Source: Prevotella sp.
Lineage (GTDB): Bacteria; Bacteroidota; Bacteroidia; Bacteroidales; Bacteroidaceae
Assembly (NCBI GenBank): GCA_017475265.1
Contig: JAFVFY010000080.1
Coordinates: 1 to 42,598, forward strand
Direction of reading: 5' to 3'
Length of the DNA: 42,598 nt
Position 1 is the stretch's first letter. Each line of letters begins with the position of its first letter. Below are positions 18,803-40,200 of the stretch, one piece after another. The notes under the pieces were generated by a model that ran no database searches, was not told the origin of the DNA, and saw only the letters and a list, made by a program, of their open reading frames with translations. Both the position numbers and the translations under genes were made by a program.

Positions 18803-20644
18803 TTATAAGGTTTTCCATGCTTTTTGTATCTCCTCCATCAGTGCGTTAGCCTCCTTGTTCAGTTGTGCCAACTCGGCATGAATCTCGTTCATGCGTTCAT
18901 AGAAATCCACACCATCATCCTCTTGTTCAGCGACACCTACATAAGCACCAGGTGTCAGAGAGTAATTCTTTTCTGCTATCTCCTGAATGGTGGCTATCTT
19001 GCAGAGGCCCAGCACATCTTGGTACTGGCCCTCTTCGCCAAACTTCGACACAAGCCACTCGCGCTGACGGGCCGTTTCAAGCGTATCCTCTATATCTGCA
19101 ATAAGAGCGTTCTGTTCAGCCTCAATGCGTTTTTTGTCTTTGCGGGGAGCATCGGCAACGAGTTGCTTGGCTTCGGCCTTTTGCTTTTGCAGGGCAGCTT
19201 CGGCTGAAATCACTGTCCACATTTTCATCTCCCCTCCTTGGGAGGGGCTGGGGGAGGTTCCTAAGGCTTTATCGTAATCTGCAATCAGATTTTGGTACTT
19301 CTCTTTCTCTCCACGATACAGATGCACGATGGCCTGCAGGTTACGAAGCTGCCACTCTGTCCATTCGTTCAGGGTTCGGTCAACTACCGTGTAATAGTTA
19401 CGGGCATCAATGAAGAGAACTTTATCGCGAATATCTGCGTTCTTGTTGCGGTCAAAGAACCACAGGGAACAAGGAAGCGAAAGTGTGTAGAAGAAGTTGT
19501 TGCCCACGCTCACCATCACATCCACATCGCCTGTACGCACCAGCTTCTCACGAATGTCACGGTCTTTGTTGGCGCTGTCCGTTGCCGAACTGGCCATAAC
19601 GAAACCAGCACGACCGTGCTCGTTCAGGTAGGCATAGAAATAGCTTATCCAAAGATAATTGGCATTGCCTATCTCCTTGGTCTTGGCATTGACTCCTGGC
19701 AAGCCAAAAGGAAGGCGACCTGCGGCAGAAGCGGACTCGGCTTTTACCTTATCGACATTAAAGGGAGGATTAGCCATCACATAGTCACATTTGCCAGCGA
19801 GGTTGTGGGCATCGTGGTAGAAAGAGTTGGCTTCGTCGCCAGAGATAATCTTTCCGTTTAGCCCATGAACAGCCATATTCATCAGACAGAGTTGGGCGTT
19901 GTATTCCACCTTCTCCTGTCCGAAGAAAGTCATATTGGTGTTGGCATTGTAGCCAGATGCATTCACGAAGTCACCCGTCTGCACGAACATTCCACCGCTG
20001 CCACAGGCAGGGTCGAGCATCACGCCCTGTTTGGGCTCCAACACATTCACCAGCATTTTCACCAATGACTTGGGCGTGAAGAAAACACCATCGTCGCTGG
20101 CAACGGCTTTAGCAAACTTGGAGAGGAAGTATTCGTAGATGCGACCTATTACGTCGCCACCAACCTCGTCGATAGTCTTGTTATTGAAGATACGCAGCAA
20201 TTCACGTAAGAGGTCATCGGCAAAGCTGGTATAGGTCTTGGGAAGTACACCTGTGAGTTGTTCGCTTTGGTCTTCCACTAATTGCATCGCATTATTAACA
20301 GCCTCGCCAAGAGAATTGATATCGTGTCCGTCCTTGCTCTTCAATCCAGCCGAAACGATGTTGTCGGGAAGATTAACCAGATAGTCGAACTGTGCTTCCT
20401 TGGGAAGATAGAGCGCACTCTTGGCAGCAAAGTCACTGGGTTCGACAGGCATCACACGACCGCCACGCATCGGTCGACTCTGTAGAATCTCTGCCTCCAC
20501 CATCTTGTAGCGGCTATAGGCATAACGCAGGAAAAGCAGAGCCAGCACAGGCATACAATACTGGCTGCTGGTCAGCTTACTACCTTGTCTCAAAAGGTCT
20601 GCCGATTCCCATAGTTCGGCTTCGAGTTTTCGTATGTTAATCAT
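18803..20644 (-). CDS. hsdM: Type I restriction enzyme, methyltransferase subunit
   Basis: The adenine N6 methyltransferase of the type I system, about 613 residues. An N-terminal HsdM helical domain precedes the SAM-binding motif DPACGSGGMF and the catalytic motif ANPPF. I start at the ATG of MINIRKLE because the earlier in-frame ATG would overlap the preceding gene's end. Codons at about residues 463-472 are an in-frame copy of a dispersed repeat (peptide SPSPSQGG) lying in a linker between the catalytic part and the C-terminal helices. It begins 35 bases after the symporter gene and may be read from that transcript, as I see no clear promoter. Confidence 0.95.
   Translation of the reverse strand: MINIRKLEAELWESADLLRQGSKLTSSQYCMPVLALLFLRYAYSRYKMVEAEILQSRPMRGGRVMPVEPSDFAAKSALYLPKEAQFDYLVNLPDNIVSAGLKSKDGHDINSLGEAVNNAMQLVEDQSEQLTGVLPKTYTSFADDLLRELLRIFNNKTIDEVGGDVIGRIYEYFLSKFAKAVASDDGVFFTPKSLVKMLVNVLEPKQGVMLDPACGSGGMFVQTGDFVNASGYNANTNMTFFGQEKVEYNAQLCLMNMAVHGLNGKIISGDEANSFYHDAHNLAGKCDYVMANPPFNVDKVKAESASAAGRLPFGLPGVNAKTKEIGNANYLWISYFYAYLNEHGRAGFVMASSATDSANKDRDIREKLVRTGDVDVMVSVGNNFFYTLSLPCSLWFFDRNKNADIRDKVLFIDARNYYTVVDRTLNEWTEWQLRNLQAIVHLYRGEKEKYQNLIADYDKALGTSPSPSQGGEMKMWTVISAEAALQKQKAEAKQLVADAPRKDKKRIEAEQNALIADIEDTLETARQREWLVSKFGEEGQYQDVLGLCKIATIQEIAEKNYSLTPGAYVGVAEQEDDGVDFYERMNEIHAELAQLNKEANALMEEIQKAWKTL
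19230..19258. repeat. Family A dispersed repeat in hsdM
   Basis: CCCCTCC and GGAGGGG face each other, followed by CTGGGGGAGG. It is in frame and encodes SPSPSQGG. Five relatives lie in other genes. Confidence 0.8.
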
Positions 20645-20679
20645 ATATGTAGATGTTTTGAGGCCGTAAATATGCCAAC

Positions 20680-37255: not shown

Positions 37256-37257
37256 AA

Positions 37258-40200
37258 ATGACAAACCGAATATTACTAATAACCCTTCTGTTTATCCTCG
37301 GATGGCAATTCCCCGTCTTGGCTCACCACGACTGGGAAGATCAAGGCATCCTGCAGCGTAACCGCGAGCCTGCCCGTGCTGCCTTCTTTGGTTATAAGAA
37401 CACTCCCGGCGACCGCCAGCTGTCGCTTGACGGCTTATGGCGATTCCACTGGACACCCACGCCCGACGGTCAGCCCGATGGATTCCACTTACCTGACTTC
37501 GATGACTCTCAATGGGAGTTGTTCCCCGTGCCAGGCGACTGGGAGATACCTTCCCACAGCCACAAATCCCACGGCACCCCCATCTACAGCAGTAGCGGCT
37601 ATACGTTCAAGATTGACCCGCCACGTGTGATGGGTGAACCAAAGCGAGACTACACTGCCTACGTGGAGCGCAACCCCACAGGCATCTATCGCCGCACATT
37701 CACCATCCCCGCCGACTGGCAGGGACAGGAGGTATACCTCCGTTTCGGAGCCGTCAGCAGCGCGTTCTACGTCTGGGTCGACGGTCAGCTGGTGGGCTAT
37801 TCCCAAGGCTCGATGGAGCCCGCCGAGTTTCGCATCACCGACTACCTCATGTCTGCCACAGAGTCAAACGTCACTTTCACTCCCCCTTCACTCCCCCTTC
37901 ACTCCCCTTTCACTCCCCTCCATCATCTCACCCTCCAGGTGTTCAAATACAGCGACGGCAGCTACCTTGAAGACCAGGATATGTGGCGGCTGGCTGGTGT
38001 TCACCGTTCGGTGACGCTCTTCGCTACGCCCCGCATCCGCATCCGCGACGTTGGTATCCGTACCGTCCTCGACAGCTGTTACCGAGACGCCCAACTCATC
38101 ATCCACCCCGAACTGGAGGTACAGCCCGGTCAGCGCGGCGAGGGCTACCATGTGGAGGCCCGCCTCTATGACGCCGATGGCCATCCAGTAGACTTTTCAA
38201 CGGCCAATGGTCAATCGTCAATGGTCAATGGTCAATGTTCAATGGTCAATGGTCAATGTTCAATGGTCAATGGTCAATGTCTTTCCGCAGATGCTGCCAC
38301 CATGCTCAACCTCGACCATCGTGCCGCCATCATGAACGACCGTACGCCCCAACGCGGCTACCCCAAATGGGGCTGGCTGACGGCCAACATCAAGAACCCG
38401 CATAAGTGGACTGCCGAGAATCCCTATCTCTACACCCTTCGCCTTGTGCTGGCCGATTCTGTCGGCCAGGTCGTGGAGCAGGTAGACCAGCGCGTGGGCT
38501 TCCGCAGTCTGGAGACCGACCGTCAGGGCCGCTTCCTTGTCAACGGCATCCCCGTTCGTCTGCGTGGTGTGAACCGCCACGAGATGGATCCCGAACTGGG
38601 ACATGTGATGACCGAGGAGCGCATGTTGCAGGACATCATCCTGATGAAGCAGGCCAACATCAACGCCGTGCGCACCTGCCACTACCCCAACACGGAGCGG
38701 TGGTACGAACTATGCGACTCGCTGGGTCTCTATGTCATGGACGAGGCCGACATTGAGGAGCACGGCCTACGTGGACAACTGGCCAGCGACCCCACGTGGG
38801 CAGCCGCTTGGCTCGACCGTACTCAGCGCCTCGTCATCCGCGACCGCAATCACCCCTCCGTCATCTTCTGGAGCCTGGGCAACGAGGCCGGCTGGGGTCC
38901 GAACTTCGCCATGACCGCCGCCTGGATTCATGAGTACGATCCCACGCGGCCCGTACACTATGAAGGCGCACAGGGCAGTCCAGCCATTCCCCGCCCCTTT
39001 GAGGGGAGGGGCCAGGGGTGGGGTTTCGACCCGCCTTCTGTCGATGTTATCAGCCGCTTCTACCCCCGCACCCAGGACGAATACCTCAACCCCGGCGTGG
39101 CCGACAGCAATATGGAGCGCCCAGAGAACGCTCGCTGGGAGCGGCTGCTCTCTCTTGCTCAGAGTAGTGATGTAACCTCAAATCTCAATTCTCACTTCTC
39201 AATTCTCAAACCAAGTCCTGTCCTCACTAGCGAATACGCCCACGCCATGGGCAACGCGATGGGCAATCTACAGGAATACTGGGACGAAATTTACAGCCAC
39301 CCGCGCATGCTCGGCGGCTTCATCTGGGAGTGGGCCGACGAGGGAATCTTCATCGACCGTCCCGACGGCAAACGCATGACGGCCTACGGCGGCGATTTCG
39401 GCGACAAGCCCAATCTGAAAGCCTTCTGCCTGAAGGGCATCGTGAGCTGCGACCGACAGCCCACCCCCAAATACTGGGAGGTGAAGCAGGTCTACGCCCC
39501 CTTACGTTTCTCGCTATCACCCTCTCCATCTGTAGGGGCAGGCCCTGTGCCAGCCCGCCAAGCCCCCAATGTCAGTTTGGATGTGGCTCTTCTCGACTCA
39601 ACCTGCACGCTTTCCGACTACGACATCCACCAAAAGGAGCACGACGGACTGCTCGATGTCTGGGTCACCCTGCGTCACGATAGGCTTTGGGCAAAGGCCG
39701 GCCATGAGGTGTGCCGCCAGCAGTTCAGCTGCGCAGATAGCGCAGCCTACGGGACACCCACTGGGAGCGCGGACGTCTCGTCTGCAACAGGGAGCGCAGG
39801 CGTCTTCGCCTGCGACATGCGGGCGGGGACGACCGCGCTCCCAATCACCGCCTGTCTCTTCCGCGCTCCCACCGACAACGACCGCGGCTTCGGCAACTGG
39901 ATAGCGAAGGACTGGACACGCCAGGGCCTCGACCGTCTGCGTGACAGCCTCATCAGAGTCACTCACACCCCCTGTCCCGTGGTCGGTGGTATTTCCGCCG
40001 ACAGTTCCCCCAGTCCTGTGGTCGGTAGTTTTGCCGCCGACAGCACCGTCGCCTACCTCACCACCAGCGGTAGCATCATCGTGAACTACAAGACCACCCC
40101 TTGTCCCGTGGTCGGCGGTAGCTCCGCCGACAGTCCCGTCGGCCTCGACCTCCTCGTTACCTTCACCCCACAGGGCGACCTCCCCACACTTCCCTGTCTG

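Follow-up and report, generated by a model that had tools for sequence, protein, structure and literature searches.

Short repeats of several kinds, rather than of a single class, occupy unrelated protein genes in a contig of Prevotella sp. (JAFVFY010000080.1 of assembly GCA_017475265.1; 42,598 nucleotides, analysed whole and referred to here as the window). The contig is part of a 4.75-Mb genome in 135 contigs. Eight window genes have repeats inside them or at their edges, 21 sites in total; an earlier note on this DNA had counted about 20 in seven. The repeats comprise hairpins (families A, B, E and F, joined by a family G from elsewhere in the genome) and tandem arrays (C, D and TCACTCCCC). 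We put at about three in four the probability that these genes have been invaded by repetitive extragenic palindromic (REP) hairpins moved by REP-associated tyrosine transposases (RAYTs), and by arrays grown through slippage, the in-frame copies at permissive sites being those that survived.

The hairpins (B and G, with F and E by likeness) would be non-autonomous and would move as single-stranded hairpins through cognate HUH/Y1 transposases, the RAYTs. Cognate RAYTs are present in relatives and were not found for these families in the genome itself, which would point to loss of the transposase. Arrays of C, D, TCACTCCCC and similar units would have grown by replication slippage. The share of copies that arrive in genes would roughly follow coding length, and copies that shift the frame, bring in a stop or strike a protein core would be lost. 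The survivors would be in-frame copies at permissive sites, in loops, linkers and termini, with an excess in the orientation and frame whose peptide is small and bland.

Repeat families and their hosts

The families were scanned in the window and in about 0.79 Mb of further stretches of the same genome (the sample); an additional 114 kb was scanned around listed G and E copies outside the sample, with the E places on contigs C99 and C128 excluded. Genes were called with a home-made caller, which gives a coding fraction of 0.861. Window genes were named by Pfam and the right half of the window was read directly.

B and G are REP hairpins of the GT[AG]G-tagged type. When their single strands are folded, each of B, E, F and G gives a stem-loop preceded by an unpaired tag at the 5' end (GTAG, GGGAGC, GTG and GTAG, respectively), so that both B and G have GTAG at the foot of the stem-loop. 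B is dispersed, and it also forms the inverted pairs that define a REPIN (a REP doublet forming a hairpin): 42 of 103 copies in relatives are paired, and a 101-nt pair folds at -43 kcal/mol. Family G, GTAGGNCACGCTTCCCAGCGTGNC, is absent from the window and came from a repeat search of the sample. E is called no more than REP-like, as its tag, GGAG, is non-canonical. F has a REP-like tag and three good copies, all in one GH2 gene; no whole-genome search was made for it, and three further matches at the mismatch limit may be chance. F and E may thus be counted among REP hairpins by likeness only. A also folds as a stem-loop and forms inverted pairs in relatives; it is probably another mobile hairpin. 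In the sample, GGGGATTGCAAATCCCC sits in the loop of B-like hairpins, a hairpin within a hairpin, with six of seven copies in called genes.

C, D and TCACTCCCC are tandem arrays and not palindromes, and C and D have no secondary structure. The earlier comparison with palindromic elements does not hold for these. The C and D heptamer arrays probably grew by slippage. The sample holds 40 D arrays (21 in genes, 15 intergenic and 4 at edges) and nine C arrays (5, 3 and 1). All genic C (5/5) and D (21/21) arrays lie in the sense, stop-free orientation; since the other strand of each holds TGA, we give this orientation no weight. In the sample, arrays of AT-rich units (ATTTACG, for example) lie mostly between genes.

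The window families exceed chance occurrence. Reversed-pattern controls gave no match for B, E, F, G or A in 833 kb, and own-genome control searches gave none for B, E, G or C. In the whole genome we found 45 B copies at ≤3 mismatches and, at ≤2 mismatches, 36 B, 21 E and 89 G copies and 411 overlapping C matches; the search for further copies, proposed in the earlier note as a check, thus returned them. A relaxed A pattern matched four times in the window, whereas 60 first-order Markov sequences gave 0.08 matches on average; the pattern misses two A-like sites (34257 and 38988), both read by eye. The strict A pattern missed several A sites, and some 4-mismatch matches may be chance.

Host genes are listed for B, E or G in 32 cases. 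The four in the window all have Pfam domains, as do 26 of the 27 scanned hosts outside it (at 1e-5), some with the repeat inside the domain; the scan took in 27 of 28 non-window hosts, the one left out being GlnRS, which was identified by sequence and crosses a stretch boundary. The window hosts for all families encode, by Pfam, HsdM, an AgcS-type symporter, a GNAT protein, an LTA-synthase-like sulfatase, a GH43, CysS, a GH106 and a GH2. Outside the window the repeats also sit in Rho, in four neighbouring cobalamin genes and in genes for a metallophosphoesterase and dockerin proteins; some of the hosts are highly conserved. Because the hosts are unrelated, shared descent was rejected as an explanation, as in the earlier note. 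The same DNA does recur in unrelated proteins for the dispersed families A, B, C, D, E and G; F was found in GH2 only.

Homologues could be compared at 17 of the 21 window sites, the set leaving aside A in HsdM, A in GNAT, E in GH43 and the B copy at 34015. Eleven of the 17 are net insertions relative to most homologues compared. The other six, sulfatase B (+4) and D (+1), GH106 B and second A, and GH2 B and E, are replacements or lie in shortened linkers or domains. These six show no clean empty site. Distant homologues with the same residues at the same positions would, by the earlier note, have refuted its reading; the residues are absent from them. Beyond the window, two G copies in NrdD add 25 residues relative to 8p23, with sequence on both sides matching closely, and TrmO, which carries B, is about 15 residues longer than 1xqb. 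The PDB alignment of TrmN6 begins after its inserts.

These alignments bear on whether the pattern is an artefact of gene calling or poor assembly, an idea that a home-made caller and a genome in 135 contigs naturally raise. It is largely refuted and we regard it as scarcely credible: nearly all scanned hosts (26/27) have Pfam domains, some around the repeat itself; NrdD aligns to 8p23 on both flanks of its insert; independent genomes have the same kind of cysS insert; and the same caller puts 56 of 63 G copies in relatives outside genes.

Transposases, location and reading frame

B-type RAYTs were sought by protein search in 398 genomes of the genus at a cut-off of 1e-20, and 25 of the 398 gave a match. 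Matches of at least 61% identity came from genomes G241, G265, G499, G192 and G292, plus a fragment in G217; B adjoins the RAYT gene in all five and not at the G217 fragment. In G241 and G265 a RAYT of 183-194 residues has an inverted B pair on both sides. The B-type RAYT carries the motifs NHVH, WQ and YIYNNP. In G205, two inverted G pairs lie upstream of a RAYT, and two G copies lie downstream of it. RAYTs at 36-49% identity often stand with other GTAG hairpins (GTAGGGGCAGAC..GTCTGCCC, GTAGGGGCGGA..TCCGCCC and GTAGGGGCGCCCC..GGGCGCCC); the arms therefore vary between RAYT lineages and the tag is constant. In relatives, B and G flank RAYT genes, and the reading of these two families as non-autonomous mobile elements is therefore well supported; here the earlier suggestion of such elements stands firmest.

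The genome itself has three Y1 transposase matches (PF01797), at loci L071, L072 and L073 (contigs C37, C29 and C20). Each has its own, different hairpins nearby, for example AAAGCCCCGAAGGGGCGACA around L071 and GGGTCGTGGGGACAGG pairs beside L072. At locus L402 of genome G261 a RAYT is flanked by GTAGGGGCGGAACAGCGTTTCCGCCC hairpins, another RAYT/REP pair of the genus. On contig C75 of G241 (the L213-L214 region) the B-type RAYT lies between open frames that, by eye, resemble histidine-biosynthesis genes.

The hairpin families are patchily distributed in the genus: B occurs in 13 of 150 genomes, E in 5 and G in 7. B reaches 128 copies in G192 against 36 here (≤2 mismatches). C arrays are more widespread (57 of 120 genomes, with up to 411 overlapping matches). 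Horizontal transfer across phyla of B in exactly its Prevotella form was considered and not adopted. Among the 80 loci listed (of 110 stretches), 17 carry names from outside Bacteroidota. In all but one of the 17, the A of the Prevotella form is replaced by T, making the stem fully paired; the pattern fits a shared REP consensus as well as it fits transfer. Spread by viruses was likewise set aside: two B matches and one E match lie in viral contigs, whose loci were not read.

Location differs between families and between genomes. In this genome 26 of 27 E copies and 48 of 56 G copies are in genes, with seven G copies intergenic and one at a gene edge; neither genic share differs from the coding fraction of 0.861 (for G, 48/55 without the edge copy). 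G is therefore classed as a REP that is intragenic in this genome. REPs take their name from an extragenic location, and in this genome the genic share of two hairpin families matches the coding share of the DNA. B is depleted from genes (15 of 26 genic, 11 intergenic; P = 4e-4). In relatives 16 of 103 B copies are in genes and 87 intergenic, with duplicates removed and copies no more than 150 nt from a locus end left out, and every paired copy (42/42) is intergenic. G pairs do occur inside genes of this genome, for example in TrmN6. In G205 and G261, 7 of 63 G copies are in genes and 56 intergenic; these 63 are drawn from 139 counted, and three of the seven lie in a contig-edge open frame. 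The contrast with 48 in and 7 out here gives a Fisher P of 7e-18, a value that is too small because copies within one gene are not independent. E is mostly genic also in the other genomes examined, where the loci overlap and no formal count was made.

These counts speak against the idea that only in-frame positions are tolerated. Intergenic B copies are plentiful (11/26 here, 87/103 in relatives), and the in-frame pattern within genes would be one of survivorship. That every copy keeps the frame is true of the genic calls, but partly by construction, because a frame-breaking copy would not be called genic; the B copy at 34015 is called intergenic.

Genic residence and frame bias could also arise at insertion, through a codon-phased target motif or a liking for transcribed single-stranded DNA, with no selection among survivors. 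We think this rather unlikely. E (26/27) and G (48/55) are indeed genic as often as coding DNA (0.86). The base before the B core is T in 18 of 23 copies, and E is preceded by TG (T in 19/23, G in 23/23). Such flanking bases may, however, simply be part of the element, and a preference for genes is hard to reconcile with the depletion of B from genes, stronger still in relatives, or with the mostly intergenic G copies of G205 and G261.

A single open frame dominates in each of B, E and G. Frame VGAGPVPA accounts for 20 of 31 B copies (this genome and relatives), GSADVSSA for 17 of 26 E copies and VGHASQR for 30 of 48 G copies in this genome, with binomial P values against equal use of open frames of 9e-8, 4e-8 and 2e-10. 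The clustering of copies in genes makes these values too small, as does one G subtype in which just three frames are open. The rarer frames encode Arg-rich peptides or peptides containing Trp and Cys. Selection on the peptide would be the simplest reading of the bias. Both orientations are used by B, E and G, as had been reported; the genic C and D arrays are restricted to the stop-free one. The dominance of one bland peptide per family is also what might be seen if copies were kept for their usefulness, as flexible linkers in the protein or as hairpins in the mRNA. This seems to us very improbable: the hosts have no common feature, homologues function without the inserts, and species differ at the same sites.

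The same linkers have been used by different families. CysS has, near residue 214 and in frame, a 32-residue D array in G192 and a 32-residue A-type pair in G128. The G192 sulfatase, 87, 78 and 79% identical to that of the window in three pieces, has A-type inverted pairs at both linkers that hold B and D in the window, and the A at the third site is missing. Two AlphaFold models of moderate confidence (fetched homologues) fit the predicted loop positions. In the model for CysS (mean predicted local distance difference test score, pLDDT, 75), residues 435-446 at the insert are modelled as coil with pLDDT <50; in that for GH2 (mean pLDDT 67), all nine repeat sites overlap low-confidence segments, of which there are 22 in all.

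Reuse of sites by different families in relatives, the clusters of copies in several hosts and the resemblance of C and D arrays to slippage products might suggest that all families, hairpins included, arose from chance seeds in weakly constrained linkers by local slippage and recombination, without transposition. That dozens of unlinked genes share 20-24-mers that are almost identical, while controls gave none, makes this improbable, as do the RAYT genes flanked by B and by G and the REPIN layout of paired B copies in relatives, all 42 of them intergenic.

Movement of hairpins by RAYTs, slippage of arrays and survival of in-frame copies is thus the account we prefer, and several observations weigh against it. 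The protein search (E 1e-20) found no cognate B RAYT in this genome, none of A, B, E, F or G lies near its three Y1 genes, and families E, F and A have yielded no transposase. In 42 RAYT loci, a set that covers the E-bearing genomes in part, E and A are absent or at the mismatch limit. G261 has 84 G copies, yet the RAYT viewed there carries another hairpin. Six of the 17 comparable window sites show little or no gain in length, and EtfA carries G with a gain of one residue only. No polymorphic insertion was seen within a species. Slippage accounts for the growth of arrays and not for one heptamer reaching many unlinked genes. Finally, genes were called with a home-made program, and several copies in the same gene do not count as independent.

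A more speculative extension, which we hold only tentatively, is that in this lineage some hairpin families have shifted niche from extragenic to coding DNA. They would enter genes as often as other DNA, and either the choice of target or selection acting on the element would have moulded them so that one frame and orientation encodes a harmless loop peptide. If so, the hairpins would give proteins a lasting supply of new linkers, one replacing another time and again at the same places. The contrast with relatives makes the survival of insertions, selection on frame and peptide, and the effect of transposase loss on retained copies open to testing. Moreover, repeat-encoded peptides can mislead homology searches and protein models from these bacteria.

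The sites along the window

The first hairpin, an A copy on the plus strand at 19231-19258, lies in the minus-strand HsdM gene, where the alignment to homologue 3khk does not reach. A D heptamer array at 20944-20993 (minus strand) adds 16 residues to the symporter relative to 6cse, and pattern scans place an A hairpin at the extreme N terminus of the GNAT gene (24071-24101, minus strand). In the sulfatase gene an antisense B copy (28043-28070, minus strand) encodes RAGTGSAPT and adds about 4 residues relative to most of 15 aligned homologues. The D array that follows (28331-28361, plus strand, as are all sites below unless stated) exceeds the shortest homologues by about 1 residue and is therefore taken as a linker replacement; an A hairpin at 29399-29426, absent in G192, adds about 6 relative to most homologues. 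The E hairpin in GH43 (31481-31505) comes from the pattern scan.

The C array in the CysS linker (33773-33811) adds 5 residues relative to most of the 29 relatives shown, five of which share diverged forms of it. B at 34015-34041 lies between cysS and the likely start of GH106, which the caller puts downstream at 34091. GH106 itself has an A-like hairpin at 34257-34292, read by eye (+5 relative to 5mqm), an A hairpin at 35111-35144 in a variable linker (23 residues here against 46 in 5mqm), and an antisense B at 36250-36277 (minus strand) with no net gain in length over 5mqm.

In GH2, the TTCACTCCCC tandem array (TCACTCCCC; 37873-37924) adds 16 residues relative to the 13 homologues shown, the C array at 38196-38280 about 28, the A-like hairpin at 38988-39026, read by eye, about 12, and the D array at 39175-39210 another 12. 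B at 39531-39558 falls in a domain that is shorter in the window protein than in homologues, and the E cluster at 39762-39848 is in the same shortened domain. Three F copies follow at 39979-40003 (+7), 40018-40042 (+7) and 40108-40132 (+9).

No copies occur in the first 19.2 kb, as had been noted, in any of the scans made. Positions 1-18800 encode Mob_Pre, phage-integrase, Schlafen/AlbA_2, HsdR, HsdS and Fic domains, and the GC content of this repeat-free part is 0.45-0.47 against 0.53-0.59 in the rest. From its lower GC and its mobilisation, integrase, restriction, Schlafen and Fic domains, the left part looks like an acquired island. Other repeats in the window are a 21-nt tandem repeat of seven residues per unit inside the gene with a Schlafen/AlbA_2 domain (10148-10315), the palindrome TTCCCACCGTGGGAA in four 22-nt tandem copies (16606-16714), arrays of 9-nt TTCGTATAG-like and 8-nt AATAACGA-like units adjoining gene starts (23354-23461 and 32403-32473), and 22-nt direct repeats of TTGTAGTACAAGACCATATCTT at the contig end (42486-42595).

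Relation to known repeat systems

The C and D arrays recall the short tandemly repeated repetitive (STRR) sequences of cyanobacteria, dispersed arrays with heptanucleotide units. The likeness lies in the dispersed 7-nt units, and the difference in that many arrays here are genic; the STRR units are not known to match C or D in sequence. The hairpins share with REP/REPIN systems a tag and stem-loop, inverted pairs, dispersed copies and a RAYT flanked by its own hairpin. REPINs have reportedly been the subject of an earlier paper (PMC3116915). Unlike in these systems, most G and REP-like E copies of the present genome sit inside genes, which are many and unrelated, and the genome yielded no cognate RAYT.

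TnpAREP subclass 2.4 is reported from Cyanobacteria and Bacteroidetes, with in-frame REPs within the transposase gene itself, and the B-type RAYT bears the motifs given there for the subclass (PMC6006769). Intragenic, in-frame GTAG and CGTC REPs have been described in Opitutus terrae, Rickettsia conorii and others (PMC3733652). As here, they lie in unrelated, partly conserved genes and are thought to be neutral in loops; the GTAG repeats listed in that study come from phyla other than Bacteroidetes, whereas here several families occur at once, with a strong frame bias and a contrast between relatives.

In the same study, Rickettsia palindromic elements (RPEs) belong to a separate group whose hairpins end in CGTC (PMC3733652). 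Palindromic DNA in frame in unrelated hosts is common to RPEs and the present repeats, but B and G end in GTAG and have RAYTs. The view that the families resemble those of Rickettsia and are distinct from them hence holds for the tag; the repeats are not one new class, the REP superfamily having already been described. We found no report of intragenic REPs in Prevotella in the open-licence PubMed Central literature. As intragenic in-frame REPs are already known, the genome is an extreme case and not a novel kind. What is new is how far the phenomenon extends, that E and G reside in coding DNA, that relatives differ in this, that one frame is favoured and that linkers are reused.

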